DNA of 64,000 bases from assembly GCF_016653405.1 (NCBI RefSeq), contig NZ_NHSN01000018.1, positions 36,524-100,523 of the forward strand. The letters are read 5' to 3'. Below are positions 1 through 8,378 of this stretch, in pieces. This DNA is from Halorhodospira halophila. Its GTDB lineage: Bacteria > Pseudomonadota > Gammaproteobacteria > Nitrococcales > Halorhodospiraceae. Made by a program: the position numbers and the translations under genes. The notes beneath the pieces were generated by a model. The model was not told the origin of the DNA. It was given only the letters and a program-made list of their open reading frames with translations, and ran no database searches. Numbering within the stretch: position 1 is the stretch's first letter; every line of letters begins with the position of its first letter.

Positions 1-911
1 GGTTGCAGCGAGAGAACCGTCCGGCCGTTGCGGCGCAAGGTCCGCCGTTCCAGGCCGCTGTCCACCACCGCGGTAATCCCAGGTACGGTCAGCGAGGTCT
101 CGGCGATATTGGTGGCCAGTACCACGCGACGCGTCGTTCCCGGCTCCAGCGCCCGGCGCTGCTCGGACAGCCGGACCCCGCCGTGGAGCCGGATCACCTC
201 GGCTTCCACCCTGGAGAGCGCCCGGCGCGCCTCCTCGATCTCACCCTGTCCGGGCAGGAAGGCGAGCACGTCCCCGGCCGTCTCGTCCAGCGCCCGCCGG
301 ATCGCCTCGGCCAGGCGCTTGCCGAGATCTCTGCGCTGCGGCATGGTCCGGGGCTGCTCGCCCAGGTGGCATTCACCCACCGGATACCCCCGGCCCGGCG
401 TCTCCAGGTACGTGCCACCCAGCTCCTTGGCCAGTCGCTCCCCGTCCACGGTTGCGGAGGTGATCACCAGGTGCTGAGCGGCATCGGCGCGCAGCAACGC
501 CAGGAGCAGGTCGGTGTCCCAGCGCCGCTCGTGGAACTCGTCGAGGATCACCGTCGTGAACTCGGCCAGCCGCCCCTCGGCCCGCCAGCGCAGGGCCACG
601 CCGGGGGTAACGAACAGGATGCGCGTCCGCTGCGAGTAGCGGCGCTCCAGGCGGACGGCATAGCCCACGCGCTCTCCCGATTCCGTCGCCATTTGTGCGG
701 CCACGAAATCGGCCAGGCTGGTCGCCGCCACGCGGCGGGGCTGGACGACCAGCACCGGACCGCCGGCCTCCGCCGCCCAGACCGGCAGCCGAGTGGACTT
801 GCCGGAGCCGGTTGCGGCCGCCACCACGCAGTGGCCCTGCTCCAGCGCCCGGGTGAACGACGGACGCAGCGGGTCGATGGGCAGAGCCGGATCTTGCTCC
901 TCCTCGCTCAT
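1..911 (-). CDS. hrpB: ATP-dependent helicase HrpB, N-terminal part (cut by window edge)
   Basis: DEAH-family RNA helicase of the HrpB type; ATP-driven, cytoplasmic, cellular substrate poorly defined in the family. Starting at the ATG at 909-911, the translation has Walker A ATGSGKST at about residues 33-40, the QPRRVAA motif, a Walker B of the form DEFHER at about residues 122-127 (DEFH rather than DEAH is typical of HrpB), the SAT motif, and further on LATNIAETSLT and a VVDSG motif. About 303 codons are visible and the C-terminal half lies outside the window. It begins 15 bases after the cysG stop on the same strand, so it is probably the last gene of the corrinoid transcript or partly independent of it. 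A paralogue, HrpA, is encoded at 44502-48437. Confidence 0.9.
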   Translation of the reverse strand, partial: MSEEEQDPALPIDPLRPSFTRALEQGHCVVAAATGSGKSTRLPVWAAEAGGPVLVVQPRRVAATSLADFVAAQMATESGERVGYAVRLERRYSQRTRILFVTPGVALRWRAEGRLAEFTTVILDEFHERRWDTDLLLALLRADAAQHLVITSATVDGERLAKELGGTYLETPGRGYPVGECHLGEQPRTMPQRRDLGKRLAEAIRRALDETAGDVLAFLPGQGEIEEARRALSRVEAEVIRLHGGVRLSEQRRALEPGTTRRVVLATNIAETSLTVPGITAVVDSGLERRTLRRNGRTVLSLQ

Positions 912-926
912 GAGGTCCTCACCGGA

Positions 927-2381
927 TTAGCCGTTCAGCCCGCCCGTCCAGCAGGGGTCGATGCTCGCCGCCGCATCGCGCTCCTCGGCCTCGCCGCGGT
1001 ACCAGCCCAGGCGCGGATGCAGCTGCACCGTCGGCCCGACCACCACCAACGCTGGACTCTCTAGCCGCTCGGAGCGGACCCGCTGTGCCAGCGTCCGGAG
1101 ATTGCCCAGAACCACCCGCTGCTGCGGTGTCGTCGCCTGGGCGACCACAGCGGCCGGATGCTCGGGCGGGAGCCCACATTCGCGTAGTTGTTCGCAAACC
1201 GCCTCGAGGTTGACCAGGCCCATGTAGATGATCAGCGTTTCGTCCTCGCGATAGGGCGCGTGGGCCCTCATCTGCGGGTGCCCGGCACGCCGGTGGCCGG
1301 TGAGCAGGCGGCAGGTCTGGGCGTAGTCCCGATGGGTCAGTGGGATGCCGGCGTAACTCGCCGCCCCCTGGGCAGCACTGATGCCCGGCACCACCTGGAA
1401 GGGGATGTCGTGCTCGATCAGGCCCTCGATCTCCTCACCGCCGCGGCCGAAGAGGAACGGATCACCGCCCTTGAGCCGGAGCACCCGCTTGCCGGAGCGG
1501 GCCAGATCGATCAGCCGTTCGTTGATCCGCTCCTGTGGCAGCGTATGCCGCCCCCGTCGTTTGCCCACCGGGATCCGCTCGGCCTCCTTGCGCACGAGAT
1601 CCAGCAGGGCCGGCGCCGCCAGGCGGTCGTAGAGCACCACGTCCGCCCGCTGCATGAGCCGCAGCGCGCGGAAGGTCAGCAGATCGGGATCCCCGGGGCC
1701 AGCCCCGACCAGAAAGACCTCCCCACGCGGGGCCGGCCGCGCCCGCTCCTCCTCGAGCAGCCGCAACAGCTCGGCCTCCCCCTCGGCCTCGCGACCGGCA
1801 AGCACCGATTCCGCGGCGGCACCATCAAAGATCTGCTCCCAGAACCGCAACCGCCAGTCCTTGTCCGGCAAGGCCACACGCACCCGCTCGCGCATCCGGC
1901 CAGCCAGGCGCGCCAGCCGACCGTAGGCCGCCGGCAGCAGGGTCTCCAGCCGGCTGGCGATCTGTCGAGCCAGCACGGGGGCGGCGCCGCCGCTAGAGAC
2001 CGCCAGTTGCAGGGGCGAACGATCGACCTGCACAGGTGTTATGTAGGTGCTCAATGAAGGGCGTCCGGCTACATTGACCGGGATCCCCCGGACGCGGCAG
2101 GCGTGATAGATGGTGCGGTCGGTGGCCTCGTCCCCGGTGGCCCCCACCACCAGTGCTGCGCCTTCTTCCATGCCCGGGGCGAACCCCTCGGCGCGGTGGT
2201 GGAGTTCGCCGGTAGCGTTCTCCAGCAGGCGCTCACACGGCGCACCCAGCTCCGGCGCGATCAGCTCCACGCGGGCGCCGGCCCGCAGCAGATCACCGGC
2301 GCGTCGGGCCGCGGCTTCGCCGCCGCCGACCACCAGGCAGCGACACCCGTCAAGCTTGAGGAAGATCGGATAGTGGTGCAT
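927..2381 (-). CDS. cysG: Siroheme synthase (uroporphyrinogen III methyltransferase / precorrin-2 dehydrogenase / ferrochelatase)
   Basis: Trifunctional CysG of about 484 residues, close to the usual 457. It makes precorrin-2 from uroporphyrinogen III, oxidises it to sirohydrochlorin and can insert iron. The N-terminal third is Met8-like, with an NAD-binding VVGGGEAAARRA motif near residue 13 and the SSGGAAPVLAR segment. The C-terminal two thirds are the SUMT methyltransferase, with VGAGPGDPDLLT, KGGDPFLFGRGGEE and VVPGISAAQGAA. The start chosen is the ATG giving MHHYPIF; an upstream in-frame extension lies inside cobJ and looks like noise. CysG feeds both siroheme and, through sirohydrochlorin and CbiX, the corrin ring genes upstream. 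Its start lies just before the cobJ stop (5 bases), consistent with co-transcription. Confidence 0.95.
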   Translation of the reverse strand: MHHYPIFLKLDGCRCLVVGGGEAAARRAGDLLRAGARVELIAPELGAPCERLLENATGELHHRAEGFAPGMEEGAALVVGATGDEATDRTIYHACRVRGIPVNVAGRPSLSTYITPVQVDRSPLQLAVSSGGAAPVLARQIASRLETLLPAAYGRLARLAGRMRERVRVALPDKDWRLRFWEQIFDGAAAESVLAGREAEGEAELLRLLEEERARPAPRGEVFLVGAGPGDPDLLTFRALRLMQRADVVLYDRLAAPALLDLVRKEAERIPVGKRRGRHTLPQERINERLIDLARSGKRVLRLKGGDPFLFGRGGEEIEGLIEHDIPFQVVPGISAAQGAASYAGIPLTHRDYAQTCRLLTGHRRAGHPQMRAHAPYREDETLIIYMGLVNLEAVCEQLRECGLPPEHPAAVVAQATTPQQRVVLGNLRTLAQRVRSERLESPALVVVGPTVQLHPRLGWYRGEAEERDAAASIDPCWTGGLNG

Positions 2382-2385
2382 AGAC

Positions 2386-3699
2386 TCAGCCCGCACGCCC
2401 CGATGCGTCCCCGGCCGGGTTCCTGCCGGTAACACGCTGCAGCGAAAGCAGGCCCCGACCGCGTTCATCCACCAGCTCCAGGCTGCAGTGCTGGCAGGTA
2501 CCGGCCAGCGCCCAGGCCGCGGCCACGCGCTGCCAGTCGAGTTCGACCCGGCCGCCTCCGGCACCGAGGACCAGCGTCTCACCGTCGTAGTAGAGCCCCG
2601 CACCAGCCACCGAACAAACCATGCGCGTTCCGGCCGGCCCGCGCACGACAGCCCGGATCCGCGGCCACTCGCGGCACTCCTCCAGGTGACGCGGCAGGTC
2701 CGTCACCTCGATCCGGCTGGTCATGAACGGCGTATCCGGCTCCGCCACGTCGTCCGCAACGGCGGCCAACGCCTCAGCCCAATCGACGTCGAAATGCGCC
2801 GCCGCGGCCTCCAGGCTTGGCGTCTGCTGCTCGCGCAACCACTGACGCAGGACCACCGGCCAGCCCTCCAGCCCCAGACTCAGCGATTGCCCGCGCTGCT
2901 CACCGGGCACGGGCGTGCCAGCCTCGGCGTACTTGGCGGTGTAGCCCCGCGGGGTCACCATCCGGCCGTGCTCGAACCGGGTCGAGCGGTTGCCGATGAT
3001 CACCGTGCTGAGCATACTCGGCTCGGCCTGGTGGAGCTGCTCCAGGGGCAGGTGCTGGACCTGCTGGCGCTCGCGGTAGGCCGAGCGGACCACCGCCACC
3101 GGAGTCTTCGGATCGCGATAGCGCAGCAGGATCTCCTGCGCCCGGGCGATGTGCGCCTGGCGGCGTTTGCTCGCCGGATTGTAGAGGACGGTGACGAAGT
3201 CACCGCGCCCGGCGGCCTCCAGCCTGCGCGCGATCACCGGCCAGGGCGTGAGCAGGTCCGAGAGCGAAATGGTGCAGAAATCGTGGGTCAGGGGGGCACC
3301 GACCAGGGCAGCGCAGGAGGACAGCGCCGAGGTCCCCGGCACCACCTCCACCTGAACCTCCCCGGCGCCCCCCTGCCAGCCCTGTTGAAGCAGGAACTCG
3401 TAGGTCGGCCCTGCCATGCCGTAGACCCCGGGATCGCCGGAAGAGACCAGGGCCACCACCTGCCCGGCCCGGGCCGCTTGCCAGGCTGCCTCGACCCGGT
3501 CAAGCTCCTCGGTCATGGCCTTGCCGATCACTGTCTTACCTTCCAGCAGCTCCGGGATCAGCTTGAGGTACGTCTGGTAACCGATGACCACCTCGGCCTC
3601 GGCGATCGCCTCTCGGGCCCGCGCAGTCATGTGCGCCGGGTCACCCGGGCCGATCCCCACCAGAAGGATCTGCCCCGGAGGGGGAACATCGCCTGTCAT
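2386..3699 (-). CDS. cobJ: Precorrin-3B C17-methyltransferase with a C-terminal ChuX/HutX-like extension
   Basis: SAM-dependent corrin ring-contraction methyltransferase (CobJ/CbiH), 437 residues where stand-alone enzymes have about 240-250. Residues 1 to about 260 carry the tetrapyrrole methylase features: VGIGPGDPAHMT, SSGDPGVYGMA, VVPGTSALSSCAALVGAPL, VLYNPASKRR and a closing GNRSTRFEHGRMVTPRGY. The remaining 165 or so residues form a separate domain with a central EWPRIRAVVRG segment and an ending SLELVDERGRGLLSLQ. By eye this follows the order of ChuX/HutX haem-utilisation proteins, although the histidines they use for haem are not evident. The start is the ATG overlapping the cobE stop (ATGA), which indicates translational coupling. 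Confidence 0.9.
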   Translation of the reverse strand: MTGDVPPPGQILLVGIGPGDPAHMTARAREAIAEAEVVIGYQTYLKLIPELLEGKTVIGKAMTEELDRVEAAWQAARAGQVVALVSSGDPGVYGMAGPTYEFLLQQGWQGGAGEVQVEVVPGTSALSSCAALVGAPLTHDFCTISLSDLLTPWPVIARRLEAAGRGDFVTVLYNPASKRRQAHIARAQEILLRYRDPKTPVAVVRSAYRERQQVQHLPLEQLHQAEPSMLSTVIIGNRSTRFEHGRMVTPRGYTAKYAEAGTPVPGEQRGQSLSLGLEGWPVVLRQWLREQQTPSLEAAAAHFDVDWAEALAAVADDVAEPDTPFMTSRIEVTDLPRHLEECREWPRIRAVVRGPAGTRMVCSVAGAGLYYDGETLVLGAGGGRVELDWQRVAAAWALAGTCQHCSLELVDERGRGLLSLQRVTGRNPAGDASGRAG

Positions 3700-4094
3700 G
3701 CGTTCAGCCTCGCTATCGATACCGTGGCGTTGCGTCCGTCGCCGCCCCGCCAGCGGCGTTTCTCGATGATCAGATCGGCGCTGTCGGCATCGGCCCGGCA
3801 CAGCGCCGCCGCTTCGGCGACCGCCGGCGTCCCGGTGTGCCGGCGCACCACCTCAGAGGGGTGCGGCACCGGGATCGCGGCCAGTTGCGTCGCCGGATAG
3901 AAAACCAGGGGCCAGCCGTGGGCCCGCGCCAGGGCGTGCAGCGCCGGTTCATCGCGCTTGAGGTCGATACTCGCCACCGCAACCACGTCCGCGTTGCACA
4001 GCCCAGCCTCGGCCAGTGCCGCGGCCACCGCCGCGGCCACCGTCTCCTCCGCTGCACCGCGGTCACAGCCAATCCCCAACACCACACGCGGCAT
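3696..4094 (-). CDS. cobE: CobE / CbiG C-terminal domain protein
   Basis: Small protein of 132 residues matching the CobE/CbiG C-terminal family: it begins MPRVVLGIGCDRGA and contains ASIDLKRDEPALHALA and YPATQLAAIPVP, the usual family signature. In organisms with full-length CbiG this domain is fused to the C-terminus; here it is a separate gene directly downstream of the N-terminal part. The start ATG overlaps the cbiG stop (TAATG) and its own stop overlaps the cobJ start, so the three are tightly coupled. CbiG opens the lactone ring and releases acetaldehyde in the anaerobic pathway; how much of that needs this domain is not shown by the sequence. Confidence 0.9.
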   Translation of the reverse strand: MPRVVLGIGCDRGAAEETVAAAVAAALAEAGLCNADVVAVASIDLKRDEPALHALARAHGWPLVFYPATQLAAIPVPHPSEVVRRHTGTPAVAEAAALCRADADSADLIIEKRRWRGGDGRNATVSIARLNA

Positions 4095-4834
4095 TACGGA
4101 CCCCGGCGCGCGGTTCGGTAGCGTACCAGCCGATCGCCCAGGCGTGCCTGCCAATCGGCGGACGGCGCCTCGTCGCGGACCCAGAGCACGGCACTGTAGG
4201 CCCCCGGGTCCAGGGCATCGGACTTGGTGAAGCGGTACAGGTTCGCCGGTGGTGGGGTTGCCGGGCGCCAGGTGTCGGCCTCCTCGATCAGCGCGACCGG
4301 CTCACCGTGAAGCAGCGCCGCCGCGGCCCGACGTAGGGCTGCAGTGGACGCCACCACCCGCCAGCCCTGCTCCCGGCCGAGCAGATCCACCGCAGGCAAC
4401 CCGCGTCGGTCCGAGGCCGTGGTCACCACGGGAGTGGCGCCGAGTTCCCGGGCGACGCGCTGCGCCCAGGCATTGGCCCCGCCCAGGTGGCCGCCGAGCA
4501 CCGCCACCGCGAAATGCGCCGAATCATCCACGCTGACCACCCCGGGGTCACGGGTCTTATCGACCAGATACGGGGCGAGCAGGCGCACACAGGCACCCAC
4601 CGAGGCGAAGCAGATAACCTGTTCGAGGGGGGAGCGGAGACGCTCCCCCAGGGCCTCCGCGAGTGCCCCGGATGCCACCGGCGTGCAGCGCTCGCCGTGG
4701 TCGGCCAGCAGTGGCGCGACCCGCTCGGTGACCAGGATTTCCGCCCCGGGCCAGAGCACCGCCAGGCGCGCCGCACCGGCGGCACCGCCACGGCTGACCA
4801 CCACCAGCAACAGCCCTGCACCCGCCTCGCTCAA
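4094..4834 (-). CDS. cbiG: Cobalt-precorrin 5A hydrolase CbiG (N-terminal and central domains)
   Basis: CbiG homologue of about 246 residues, acting on cobalt-precorrin-5A in the anaerobic B12 route. Recognisable segments are VGACVRLLAPYLVDKTRDPGV, VSVDDSAHFAVAVLGGHLGGAN and ATPVVTTASD, all characteristic of the CbiG N-terminal domain. The C-terminal domain is encoded separately by the next gene (cobE). No ATG fits; I chose the TTG that overlaps the cobI stop (TTGA) and sits a few bases after a GGAGGAGG Shine-Dalgarno. A longer reading upstream runs antisense-free through cobI in another frame and looks like shadow sequence. The presence of CbiG argues for early cobalt insertion rather than the oxygen-dependent CobG route. 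Confidence 0.88.
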   Translation of the reverse strand: MSEAGAGLLLVVVSRGGAAGAARLAVLWPGAEILVTERVAPLLADHGERCTPVASGALAEALGERLRSPLEQVICFASVGACVRLLAPYLVDKTRDPGVVSVDDSAHFAVAVLGGHLGGANAWAQRVARELGATPVVTTASDRRGLPAVDLLGREQGWRVVASTAALRRAAAALLHGEPVALIEEADTWRPATPPPANLYRFTKSDALDPGAYSAVLWVRDEAPSADWQARLGDRLVRYRTARRGP

Positions 4835-5583
4835 ACGCCCTCGCCTCCTCCGGAGGGCGCGCCGGAGCGGCCCTTGCAGACCATCAGCAGCGAGAGGTAA
4901 TGAACCGTCTCGCCGCGCAGCCCGGTGATCTCCGTAACCACCCGCTCCTGCGGGGTGCCGACGCGCTCGACGAAGACGCTGGCGTCGCTCAACCCGCGCC
5001 GCTCGAGCAGCTCGATCAGCGGGTCGAGCAAGGGCTTGACCTTGAGCAGCACCAGCGTATCCACCTCCGGCAACAGTCGTTCCACGGTCTCCATCCCGTA
5101 CCCCCCCGGGAGCACCGCCAGCGCGTCGCCCTGGCTGGCCAACGGCCAGCCGACGCGCGCCGGGGCCGCCAGGAAGGAGGCCACCCCCGGGATGGTCTCC
5201 ACTCCGGCACCGGGCTCCTCGGCGAGCACGGTACGGGCCAGGTGCCCGAAGGTGGCGTAGGTCGAGGCATCGCCCTCGACCAGGAAGGCCACATCCCGCC
5301 CCTGCGCCAGGGTCGTGGCCACGGTCGTCGCCGCCCGCCCCCAGTGCAGCGCCAGCGTCCCCGGGTCGTGGGTCATCGGGAAGACCAGGGGCATGGCATC
5401 GTCCGGTGCCACCAGCCCGCCGCGCTCGACGATATCCAGCGCGTAGCTGCGCTGCCCTTGGGCCCGCACCGGATACGCCCAGCGCGCATCTCCCTGCAGG
5501 ACCTGCCAGGCCCGGCGCGTGATCCATCCGGGATCCCCGGGGCCCAGCGAAACCCCGATCAACCTTCCCGAGGCTGTCGTCAT
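4831..5583 (-). CDS. cobI: Precorrin-2 C20-methyltransferase
   Basis: CobI/CbiL, 250 residues as expected, adds the C20 methyl group that is later lost in ring contraction. The N-terminal SAM-binding motif reads GVSLGPGDPGWIT; it also has LVFPMTHDP, VAFLVEGDASTYATF, ETIPGVASFLAAPARVGWPL, and KVKPLLDPLIELLE. The start ATG overlaps the cobL stop (ATGA) and its stop overlaps the TTG of cbiG. It acts right after CysG and, in the cobalt-early route, after CbiX loads cobalt into sirohydrochlorin. Confidence 0.94.
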   Translation of the reverse strand: MTTASGRLIGVSLGPGDPGWITRRAWQVLQGDARWAYPVRAQGQRSYALDIVERGGLVAPDDAMPLVFPMTHDPGTLALHWGRAATTVATTLAQGRDVAFLVEGDASTYATFGHLARTVLAEEPGAGVETIPGVASFLAAPARVGWPLASQGDALAVLPGGYGMETVERLLPEVDTLVLLKVKPLLDPLIELLERRGLSDASVFVERVGTPQERVVTEITGLRGETVHYLSLLMVCKGRSGAPSGGGEGV

Positions 5584-6878
5584 GCTGTCTCCGTCTTGTT
5601 CGCCGTGAGTACCCAGACCGGGTTCTCCGCGCGGAAAGTGCGCATCCCGGCCAGCTCACCACTGCGGCTGGCCTGCAGCTGCACCGCCTCCCACTGCACG
5701 GTCCCCTGGGCCGCGGCGGCATCGAGCCGGGCCATGGCCTGTTGGAGATTCTCCAGGGTCACCACGTTGATCACCAGCCGCCCGCCCGGACGCAGTCGCT
5801 CCAGGCAGTGGTCGATCAACGTGCCCAGTGCTCCGCCGGAGCCACCGATGAACACCGCGTCCGGATCCGGCCATTGTTCCAGCCCCTGCGGAGCCCGGCC
5901 GTGATGGAGCGTGACATTCCCCGCCCGACGCCGGCGCCGATTCTCCTCGGCGATGGCGAGATCCTCGAGGCGGCGCTCCATGGCCCAGACATGCCCCCGC
6001 GGGCAGAGCCTCGCGGCCTCGAGGGCCACCGCCCCGGAACCGGTCCCGATATCCCAGACCCGGCTCTCGGCGGTCAGCGCCAGACTGGCCAGGGCAACCG
6101 CCCGGACCTCCCGCTTGGTGATCAGGCCGCGCTGCGGGCGACGCTGGGCAAACGATGCATCGGCCCCGGCGAATGGCCAGGCCAGTGCCGCCGTACGGCG
6201 CCGCACCAGCGCCACATGGGGCTGCGCATACCGGTGCGCCGCAGCGCTGCCGAGCGGCGCCGGCGGATGGAGCTGTTCATCCTCCCGCCCGATGCGCGCC
6301 ACTACGGCCACCTCCAGTTCTTCATCGCTGTAGCCGACCGCCTGCAGCTGCCGGGCCAGCCAGTCGGCGCCATTCTCACCGGTGGTGTAGACCGCCACGC
6401 GCTCGTGATCATCCAGGGCACGCAGCACCCCGCTCATCGGGTGCTCGGGCGACGCCGCCTGCGCCGACCAGTCATCGGCCGCGCGGCCGTGCACCGAGGC
6501 GATGGCGGTCTGCGCCACCGGCCAACCGAGCCGGGCACAGGCCAGCTGAACCAGCGACGGGGCCGGCAGTACCCGGCAGCGCGCGGCACCGAGGCTCGCG
6601 GTGACGCGCTCGCCAATGCCGTGGCAGAGCGGGTCGCCACTGGCAAGAACCACCACGTGCCGCCGCTGCGCCGCCGCGGCCTCGATCCAGGCCGGAACTT
6701 GCGCCACGCTGCCGGTCAGATCCCGGCGCTCCGCCCCGGGGGCCAGGGGCGCACAGGTTTCGAGAACGCGCCGCCCGCCGATGAGCAGATCCGCCCCGGC
6801 GATCGCCTCGCGGGCAGCAGGCGCCAGCGCTTCGGGGCCGTCATCCAGCACGCCGACGATGGTGCACACGGGGCTCAC
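5580..6878 (-). CDS. cobL: Precorrin-6Y C5,15-methyltransferase (decarboxylating), fused CbiE-CbiT type
   Basis: Two-domain enzyme of about 432 residues. Residues 1 to about 210 are a tetrapyrrole methylase (CbiE part; VVLASGDPLCHGIGERV, VLPAPSLVQLACARLGWP). The rest is a class I Rossmann methyltransferase (CbiT part) with ITKREVRAVAL, VWDIGTGSGAVALEAARL and the decarboxylase-associated DAVFIGGSGG. It methylates C5 and C15 and removes the acetate carboxyl at C12. The start is a GTG (VSPVCTIVG) overlapping the cobH stop; the longer ATG-started reading extends into cobH and is unlikely. Its stop overlaps the cobI start. Confidence 0.93.
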   Translation of the reverse strand: MSPVCTIVGVLDDGPEALAPAAREAIAGADLLIGGRRVLETCAPLAPGAERRDLTGSVAQVPAWIEAAAAQRRHVVVLASGDPLCHGIGERVTASLGAARCRVLPAPSLVQLACARLGWPVAQTAIASVHGRAADDWSAQAASPEHPMSGVLRALDDHERVAVYTTGENGADWLARQLQAVGYSDEELEVAVVARIGREDEQLHPPAPLGSAAAHRYAQPHVALVRRRTAALAWPFAGADASFAQRRPQRGLITKREVRAVALASLALTAESRVWDIGTGSGAVALEAARLCPRGHVWAMERRLEDLAIAEENRRRRRAGNVTLHHGRAPQGLEQWPDPDAVFIGGSGGALGTLIDHCLERLRPGGRLVINVVTLENLQQAMARLDAAAAQGTVQWEAVQLQASRSGELAGMRTFRAENPVWVLTANKTETA

Positions 6879-7543
6879 GTGCCGGCCTCCCCGGCCAGGC
6901 CAAGCAGGGCGTGGAGGCAGGCCACCACCGCCGGCGTCCCGCCCTTGCGCCCGGCCGTGGCAATCCACGGCACCCGCTGTTGCGCCATAGCCTCGTCGCT
7001 GGACTCGGCGGCGGCGACAAATCCCACCGGCATGGCGATCAGCAGTCGCGGCGCCACCTCGCCACGCTCGATGCGCGCGAGGATCGCCCGCAGGGCGGTC
7101 GGGGCGTTGCCCACGGCGACCATGGCGCCGTCGAGCCGCCCCTGCTCGGCGGCCAGGGCGACGGCCTGCTCGGCCCGTGTCGTCCCGGCGCGCTCGGCAC
7201 GCTCCGCCGCTTGCGGGTCGTTCATCAAGCAGTGGGCCTCGACCCCGAAATAGCGCAGGCGTTCCGCCGAGAGGCCGACCCGGATCATCTCGACATCGAC
7301 GAACACCGGCGCCCCGGAGCGGATCGCCGCCACCCCGGCTGCCACCGCCTGGGGATGGAAGCGGGTCACACCGTTGAAATCAAAATCCGCCGTGGCGTGG
7401 ATCATGCGCCGGACTACCGGCCACTGTGCGGTGTCGTAGGCGCTGCGATCTCCGGCCTCGGCATCAACACGGGCGAAGGAGCACTCCTCGATACGCCGCC
7501 CGGAGGCGGTCTGCTGCTCGGTCACGGACGGCTCACGGGACAT
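6875..7543 (-). CDS. cobH: Precorrin-8X methylmutase
   Basis: CobH/CbiC, 222 residues, moves the methyl group from C11 to C12 to give hydrogenobyrinic or cobyrinic acid. The catalytic histidine is evident at about residue 49 in the conserved RMIHATADFDF motif. Further family segments are PVFVDVEMIRVGL, GNAPTALRAIL and MPVGFVAAAESS. The stop overlaps the cobL GTG start. It follows cbiX by 10 bases with no room for a promoter, so it belongs to the riboswitch-controlled operon. Confidence 0.95.
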   Translation of the reverse strand: MSREPSVTEQQTASGRRIEECSFARVDAEAGDRSAYDTAQWPVVRRMIHATADFDFNGVTRFHPQAVAAGVAAIRSGAPVFVDVEMIRVGLSAERLRYFGVEAHCLMNDPQAAERAERAGTTRAEQAVALAAEQGRLDGAMVAVGNAPTALRAILARIERGEVAPRLLIAMPVGFVAAAESSDEAMAQQRVPWIATAGRKGGTPAVVACLHALLGLAGEAGT

Positions 7544-7553
7544 TGCGGCACCC

Positions 7554-8378
7554 TCAGTGGTGGTGATGATGGTGGTGATGACCGGCCGCGGCCCGGTGCG
7601 GACAGCCGTCGCACTCGAGCATGGCCTGCCCGGTCCGCGCCTCCTCCACCCGGTGGGCGATCAGATCGAAGACTTCCGGCTCGAAACCGAGATAATCCGC
7701 CAGGGCGAAGACCGTCCGGGGATACTGGATGCGCAGCCGCTCCACCTGTTGCTCGATGCGCTCGATCAGCCGTCCGGTGAACAGGTAGTACGGCAGGATC
7801 ACCTGTTGCGTCGCGCCCAGCAGGTGGTGGCGCTGCACCACCGCCTCCAGGCGCGGGTGCGTCACGCCAGTGAAGGCGATATCGACCAGGTCATGCTCGC
7901 CACCCTCGTAGAGCCACCGCCCCAACCGCGCGAGCTCCCCGTTGGCGGTGCGGTCCGAGGACCCCCGACCGAGCAGGATGACGCCGGTGGTCCGCGGATC
8001 GGGGACGTGCAGGGCCTGCATGGCATCGCGCAGACGCCGCTCGACCAGACCCAGCGACGATTCACTGACTCCCAGGTGGCGTGCCAGGCGGAAATCGACG
8101 CCGGGGTGCCGCTCTCGAGCCGCATCGACCTGCTCGGGCACCTCGAGTTTCACGTGCCCGGCGGCATTGAGGATCAGCGGCACGGCAATGACGCGCTCGG
8201 CACGGGCCGCGGCGCGATCCAGGCCCTCGCTAAGCAGCGGATCGGCGAACTCGATGAAGCAGGTCTCCAGTCGCCAGTCCGGATAGCGCTCGGCCAGCAT
8301 CCCGGCGAACCGGCGGATCTCCTCATTGCCGTCCTCTTGGCGTGATCCATGCCCGATCAGAAGGATACAATCACTCAT
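7554..8378 (-). CDS. cbiX: Sirohydrochlorin cobaltochelatase CbiX, with a His-rich tail
   Basis: Class II chelatase of 274 residues, the long two-repeat CbiX form. It inserts Co2+ into sirohydrochlorin, the committed step of the anaerobic pathway. His10 (LLIGHGSR) and His75 (NAAGHVKLEVP) match the two metal-handling histidines of the family. In the second repeat the equivalent first His is replaced (LLGRGSSD), so only the N-terminal half looks catalytic. The C-terminus ends CDGCPHRAAAG followed by eight consecutive histidines encoded by mixed CAC/CAT codons, a likely cobalt storage or delivery tail. It lies 12 bases downstream of cobM. Confidence 0.94.
   Translation of the reverse strand: MSDCILLIGHGSRQEDGNEEIRRFAGMLAERYPDWRLETCFIEFADPLLSEGLDRAAARAERVIAVPLILNAAGHVKLEVPEQVDAARERHPGVDFRLARHLGVSESSLGLVERRLRDAMQALHVPDPRTTGVILLGRGSSDRTANGELARLGRWLYEGGEHDLVDIAFTGVTHPRLEAVVQRHHLLGATQQVILPYYLFTGRLIERIEQQVERLRIQYPRTVFALADYLGFEPEVFDLIAHRVEEARTGQAMLECDGCPHRAAAGHHHHHHHH

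Follow-up and report, generated by a model that had tools for sequence, protein, structure and literature searches.

The CobJ protein encoded in the stretch of Halorhodospira halophila DNA analysed here (64,000 nucleotides; the window) consists of a methyltransferase domain, a conserved flexible linker and a domain related to ChuX, HutX and HemS. One clade of CobJ proteins has conserved this fusion, whose gene lies within a cbi operon. The gene is located on the minus strand (3699..2386), starts with ATG and encodes 437 amino acids without internal stops; its start overlaps the stop of the preceding CbiG_C gene by four bases (ATGA). The operon runs in the order CbiX, CbiC, CbiE-T, CbiL, CbiG_N, CbiG_C, CobJ-tail and CysG (Table 1), and the start of CysG is likely the ATG at 2381, directly past the CobJ stop. 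CbiD of the same genome is encoded on a contig other than that of the cbi operon (G000:C25:214270-215052). The eight consecutive C-terminal histidines of the CbiX-type chelatase (7554-8378, minus strand) are probably a metal-holding tail.

Table 1. Features of the CobJ-tail gene and its operon, in window coordinates.
Feature	Position	Strand	Basis
CobJ/CbiH C17-methyltransferase domain, residues 1-254	2938..3699	-	TIGR01466 312.8 bits, PF00590
Linker, residues 255-279, conserved E..G-S-L-x-x-G-L motif of tail-bearing CobJs	2863..2937	-	conservation, pLDDT
ChuX/HutX/HemS-like domain, residues 280-426	2422..2862	-	relatives' profiles, L096 fold, secondary structure of the window model
R349 and R353	2641..2655	-	alignment A4; R353 at the place of ChuX His65
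GRVE, residues 383-386, at the place of the relatives' F-H-x-H motif, both His lost	2542..2553	-	alignment
Low-confidence end, residues 427-437, and stop	2386..2421	-	pLDDT <50 at 427-437
CbiG C-terminal half	3696..4154	-	PF01890 E 2.1e-36; ORF ends
CbiG N-terminal and central portion (start uncertain)	4094..4900	-	PF11760, PF11761
CobI/CbiL C20-methyltransferase	4831..5583	-	TIGR01467 209.6 bits, cut-off 163.25
CbiE-CbiT fusion	5580..6968	-	TIGR02467 and TIGR02469 over cut-off
CbiC precorrin-8X methylmutase	6875..7543	-	PF02570
CbiX-type chelatase with two CbiX stretches and eight C-terminal His	7554..8378	-	PF01903; translation
CysG siroheme synthase	927..2603	-	NF007922 574.4 bits

The match to the CobJ/CbiH profile covers residues 11–254 and exceeds the NCBIfam cut-off of 246.35 bits. 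In the predicted model of the window protein, the methylase domain superposes on solved CobJ structures with Z scores of 28.6 (2zvb) and 25.9 (3nut). Profile and fold together show the protein to be a predicted CobJ/CbiH-type C17-methyltransferase. A plain Pfam scan of the whole protein shows the methylase only, with TP_methylase as the sole domain found. The two solved proteins (239–259 residues) cover only residues 7–254 of the model; since the profile also ends at 254, about 170 residues are extra. The initial annotation, which had the methyltransferase complete by about residue 260 and the frame open beyond it, was right on both points.

The extra domain is recognised through its relatives. 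Against the Pfam family ChuX_HutX (PF06228), the isolated window tail reaches 13.3 bits, under the cut-off of 25, and a scan of the full protein does not report the family; none of five proteins of the genus (L039, L006, L007, L008 and L013) reaches the cut-off. Outside the genus, it is passed by 10 of the 12 full-length tail-clade proteins tested (all eight of one set, at 32.9–49.1 bits, plus L044 and L112), while L167 and the half-tail protein L169 stay under it. When 19 tails were searched at a loose threshold (E 10), 17 matched ChuX_HutX (best E 3e-13), 15 matched HemS and nine matched the LFE_1968-like family (best E 1.1e-6, below that model's cut-off where the score was seen). The Pfam matches over cut-off in the scanned tails are of ChuX/HemS type only. 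A VMAP-M19 match of the window tail (E 0.12) was taken for chance. A profile built from the 19 tails matches HemS-type proteins among PDB sequences, with the best E value of 3.2e-7 for the C-terminal half of 7qxv and further matches to 3fm2 and 2hqv; ChuX (2ovi, 6u9j) and HutX (5exv) are absent from this search at E 10. Profile-profile comparison with HemS loci (hhalign) gives the tail family a probability of 94.8%, and a profile limited to the genus one of 89.8%.

The predicted structures agree with this placement. AlphaFold2 models were obtained with a mean pLDDT of 80.3 for the protein of Methylotuvimicrobium buryatense (L096) and 78.5 for the window protein. Residues 269–439 of the L096 model superpose on HutX (5exv) with a Z score of 17.0 and 2.4 Å over 160 aligned residues, and the modelled tail superposes on ChuX with Z scores of 16.7 (6u9j) and 16.6 (2ovi). 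In the window model, residues 280–426 form three helices, a strand, a helix and a sheet, an order that agrees with the L096 model except for the last helix, which spans residues 424–438 in L096 and is missing in the window model. Neither model resolves the linker with confidence (pLDDT <50 at residues 251–277 of the window protein). Foldseek searches with the full-length models of both proteins returned methylase folds for all the best 50 matches, and the best 50 superpositions of the full-length window model are likewise methylases; as the larger domain fills the list, these results bear on the methylase part only.

These data support a relation of the tail to the ChuX/HutX/HemS superfamily, as judged by sequence and predicted fold. 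Because its own Pfam score is under the cut-off and those of its relatives are over it, the window tail is best called ChuX-like and would not itself count as a ChuX. The homology to ChuX/HutX proposed in the initial annotation is thereby borne out through the relatives' profiles, the L096 fold match and the order of secondary-structure elements in the window model. Two landmarks picked out by eye also fall into place: EWP (residues 344–346) aligns with the EWG of ChuX and HutX, and SLELVD (residues 406–411) aligns with ASILFFN of ChuX. The outcomes that would have spoken against the assignment, namely an unrelated or disordered class and an ordinary CobJ C-terminus, were looked for and did not occur; a disordered tail is rejected on this evidence.

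To compare the pocket residues, we used alignments A4 and A5, which contain 46 of the 68 prepared locus proteins (from 80 loci) and the window protein. In A4, 45 of the 47 rows have H-x-H in the columns that hold window residues 384 and 386, a count that leaves out the genome-sample members L042, L053, L167 and L168; the exceptions are the window (GRVE) and L072 (FYLH). The second histidine is found in all 46 non-window rows of A5, and the window has Glu386 there. This second histidine of F-H-x-H aligns with His98 of ChuX and with the histidine of the HemS FNLHL motif, and R353 of the window aligns with His65 of ChuX. His65 and His98 have reportedly been studied in ChuX, and Tyr90 is reportedly a ligand in HutX. 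Over 75 of the best 80 loci (L097, L124, L127, L133 and L142 left out), the alignment gives HxH in 73; L118, whose row is misaligned, has NDAFHLH, and L072 has FYLH. One or both histidines are missing in a few members outside the genus: L042 (SLE), L053 (RMH), L072 and, by eye, L167 and L168. Every one of the 47 rows of A4, the window included, retains R349 and R353; within the genus, the R353 place is not invariant, with His in L004 and Val in L006. The window protein lacks G346, E361, F383, H384 and H386, each of which is present in 44–46 of the 46 relatives in A5. The linker residues E267, G270, S272, L273, G276 and L277 are conserved in all 46 of these relatives and are kept in the window protein.

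Judged from these alignments, the tail in most of the family looks like a candidate ligand-binding domain of ChuX type, and the window's genus appears to have retained the domain but altered or abandoned its metal-ligand part. The initial annotation had noted that the haem histidines of ChuX are not evident and had argued for a different ligand. The absence holds for the window's genus and a few other members and does not extend to the architecture, in which most relatives have F-H-x-H; the argument drawn from it can therefore be made for the window's lineage only.

The window tail is under purifying selection. Comparison of the window gene with those of five related genomes of the genus gives dN/dS values of 0.08, 0.11, 0.27, 0.32 and 0.43 over residues 276–426, and 0.07–0.27 for the methylase part. 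The tail is present in eight of the nine genomes of the genus; in the ninth (G005), and in three genomes of other genera of the family, weak methylase matches were obtained and the tail was not found. The dN/dS values, together with the presence of the tail in the genus and far outside it, indicate that the extension is not a chance read-through. A decaying relic of a once functional domain would account for the features missing from the window tail (F-H-x-H, E361, G346 and the C-terminal helix), and for a tail dN that is 1.5–2.8 times the methylase dN in the same comparisons. However, such decay fits poorly with the low dN/dS, the lack of any stop inside the compared frames (window, L002, L003, L004, L005 and L006) and the retention of the tail in eight of nine genomes, and we give the relic only a slim chance for the window's genus.

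To trace the distribution of the fusion, an alignment of the genus was searched against 369 genomes of the class. At E 0.01, 28 genomes match, 21 of them at E <1e-17. The seven weak matches (G072, G131, G207, G274, G318, G340 and G361; E 0.0025–0.0093) were dropped, and none of them is among the CobJ-bearing genomes. CobJ itself is found in 41 of the 369 genomes (E 1e-40), with 40 over the family cut-off and a fragment in G243 below it. The architecture that the initial annotation wished to see counted is present in 21 of these 41 genomes and absent from 20; the chemistry therefore does not depend on the domain. In all 21 strong matches the tail is in one frame with CobJ, as it would be if it were simply the ordinary CobJ C-terminus. 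That explanation is already refuted: the solved enzymes match only residues 7–254 of the model, and the 20 tail-less class CobJs include some, such as L171 and L173, that are joined to other corrin domains (partners assigned by eye). In L171 (G079; minus strand, a frame of 522 amino acids), the partner of CobJ is by eye a precorrin-6A reductase (CobK/CbiJ).

In a sample of the phylum (398 genomes, E 1e-6), 24 genomes match: the window's own, 21 long matches outside the class and two short ones, which cover 34 (G694) and 23 (G508) profile positions. A stop inside the matched stretch in several other phylum rows was taken for the natural end of the tail. A scan of a named genome collection, which used linker patterns from the wider alignment A3 and was not exhaustive, found 93 relatives, and the best 80 were kept. 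By title, these best 80 of 93 are proteobacteria wherever a group is named. They include many unclassified gammaproteobacterial MAGs, Methylococcales, Mariprofundaceae/Ghiorsea, a single Sideroxydans and a single Ferrovum. Searches of viral contigs with the full protein found no relative.

The methylase-domain tree contains 58 rows (37 with the tail, 20 without it and one with half a tail). A single branch, supported at 85/89 and recovered in 88% of 200 bootstrap trees, splits the tail-less rows from the tail rows; several tail-less rows, L171 and L172 among them, have long branches. The simplest reading of this tree is one gain of the tail followed by descent, with partial loss in L169. The L169 frame (G694; 481-1734, plus strand) contains CobJ, the conserved linker and the first tail helices, and it has no beta sheet; a partial tail loss is probable from this sequence.

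Several relatives show further rearrangements. CbiG_C-CobJ-tail triple fusions are present in the genus members L007 and L008 and in L112, a MAG named Proteobacteria bacterium FK4.bin2. In L044 and L070, a frame of 704 amino acids joins CobJ-tail to a nitroreductase-family domain (PF00881, 102.8 bits in L044) that looks like BluB, the enzyme that makes the lower ligand of B12. A second, short copy lies in L013/L024 (contig 82 of G007) beside a frame that by eye is helicase-like; the L013 frame (1153-2058, plus strand) contains the first half of the methylase (PF00590 34.2 bits, positions 2–106 of 212) with a degenerate SAM motif, followed by the tail. This short copy may be a binding-only paralogue.

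The gene neighbourhood ties the fusion to corrin synthesis. Among the best 80 of the 93 relatives' loci, same-strand neighbours are CbiG_C in 74, CbiG_N in 71, CbiL in 58, CbiET in 54, CbiD in 49 (all within 6 kb of CobJ), CbiC in 36 and CbiX in 20; as the flanks stop at 6 kb or where the contig does, distant genes are undercounted, and CysG was left out because of cross-matches to CobJ. The tail also marks a difference in pathway among the 41 CobJ-bearing class genomes. CobN is over its cut-off in none of the 21 tail genomes and in 13 of the 20 tail-less ones (Fisher p 4e-6), and CobG in none of 21 against five of 20 (Fisher p 0.02), a contrast that is not independent of ancestry as the tail genomes are related members of one clade. 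CbiD is similar in both groups (20 of 21 and 17 of 20), and the contrast therefore rests on CobN and CobG. The CobN matches of two tail genomes at 308 bits (G000) and 563 bits (G249) are under the cut-off of 822.05 and are probably Mg-chelatase relatives. The CobG search was loose: 27 of the 41 genomes match at E 1e-10, and tail genomes reach 162 bits (cut-off 234.8). For this reason, only the five matches over the cut-off were counted. We read the others as mostly sulfite-reductase-type relatives; two tail-less genomes at 203 and 211 bits may have CobG too.

A haem or siroheme sensor, in which ligand binding would tune CobJ so that B12 synthesis follows the haem or iron supply, is one way to explain such a domain. 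ChuX and HutX bind haem 1:1 (PMC10404700), and HutX passes haem to HutZ (PMC6775658). The alignment of the second motif histidine with ChuX His98 and the position of CysG next to the CobJ-tail gene in the window would suit a sensor. However, the gene is tied to the corrin enzymes CbiG, CbiL and CbiET in a survey of corrin-synthesis genes, no separate ChuX was found in the window's genome (PF06228, E 0.01), and the window's genus has lost the histidine ligands and kept the gene. We regard the sensor as distinctly unlikely.

We favour, at about an even chance, the reading that the tail serves anaerobic ring contraction as a module that holds a tetrapyrrole, the nature of this ligand being inferred. 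On the anaerobic route, CbiH turns cobalt-factor III into cobalt-precorrin-4 by contracting its ring, and two steps later CbiG opens the lactone (PMC7242693). The old haem cleft would accept either the substrate cobalt-factor III, a planar metallo-tetrapyrrole, or the product of the contraction. The tail could keep the bound tetrapyrrole reduced and away from oxygen, and hand it over between the catalytic domain and CbiL and CbiG, the neighbouring enzymes. Cobalt would be ligated, in most relatives, by a histidine of the F-H-x-H strand, with the ring carboxylates held by the two conserved arginines. In the window's genus, where the histidines are gone, the domain may bind the ring by its carboxylates only or may serve as a docking module; in our judgement, ligand-free docking is here about as probable as carboxylate-only binding. 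We favour the holding module because of the homology and fold, the conserved fusion, the motif, the pathway contrast, the operon, the fusions with CbiG_C, the purifying selection and the haem binding of ChuX and HutX. Against it count the window tail, which lacks both histidines, E361 and the last helix and scores under the Pfam cut-off, the tails outside the genus that lack one or both histidines, the 20 class CobJs that do without the domain, the shared ancestry behind the pathway contrast, and the low confidence of both models in the linker, which sets the geometry between pocket and active site.

For the family as a whole, a ligand-free docking or scaffold domain that joins CobJ to CbiG or CbiL for channelling, with pocket residues that matter in part of the family only, appears unlikely, although it has a modest claim. 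The triple fusions with CbiG_C, the constant gene neighbourhood, and a window tail that keeps the linker, the core and the two arginines without the histidine pair and is under purifying selection would all agree with docking. By contrast, F-H-x-H is near-invariant on one strand in most relatives and looks like a ligand site, not a protein interface. On the holding-module reading, a more specific history can be proposed tentatively, and we consider it less likely than not. An early proteobacterial CbiH would have acquired a haem-carrier fold in a single event and used it as a dedicated cobalt-tetrapyrrole carrier, in which the histidine strand ligates cobalt and the oxygen-sensitive intermediates of ring contraction stay bound. 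Methanotrophs, iron oxidisers and other oxygen-exposed bacteria could thereby run the oxygen-independent cobalamin route, and the window's genus would since have changed to a histidine-free pocket.

The tails differ from the known members of the superfamily in several respects. The L096 tail has the same whole-domain fold as ChuX and HutX (PF06228), which serve haem trafficking in E. coli O157:H7 and Vibrio cholerae, and the tails share with them the EWG turn, the G-H strand and the closing strand pair. Unlike ChuX and HutX, they are fused to CobJ in a corrin operon. Compared with ChuX, most tails have Arg in place of His65, the relatives have an extra histidine before the His98 position, and the window tail lacks the His98 equivalent and the last helix. 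The tails match the C-terminal half of HemS/ChuS (PF05171) by profile, with HemS FNLHL corresponding to FHLHI; HemS has two such domains, whereas a tail has one, attached to a methyltransferase. Plain CobJ proteins (3nut and the Thermus thermophilus 2zvb) share the methylase domain and have no extra domain.

CbiH60 of Bacillus (Priestia) megaterium is reportedly a ring-contraction C17-methyltransferase of the anaerobic pathway with a long C-terminal extension, which is said to be nitrite-reductase-like and to carry an Fe-S centre. CbiH60 is thus also an extended CbiH; in contrast, the tails here show ChuX/HemS-type Pfam matches over cut-off, and a CbiH60-type Fe-S/nitrite-reductase-like Pfam domain was not found in the 10 tail proteins scanned at E 1. 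Extended CbiH proteins are already known. For the ChuX-type extension, a literature search at the level of titles and abstract openings returned no description of a fusion of CobJ/CbiH with ChuX or HemS. Since many members pass Pfam's own cut-off, we expect domain databases to show the architecture mechanically, and the fusion to be undescribed rather than invisible.

To our knowledge, little is understood of how CbiH contracts the ring anaerobically in corrin synthesis, and the ChuX/HutX/HemS superfamily has so far been known for haem. A CbiH with a built-in haem-carrier-like domain offers a handle on how labile cobalt intermediates are held and handed over, and the fusion is carried by cultured organisms, M. 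buryatense and Methylococcus capsulatus (L084). If the tail does bind a corrin intermediate, the superfamily would gain a new ligand. The analysis suggests that a borrowed haem pocket holds a B12 intermediate in this bacterium and in many other proteobacteria.
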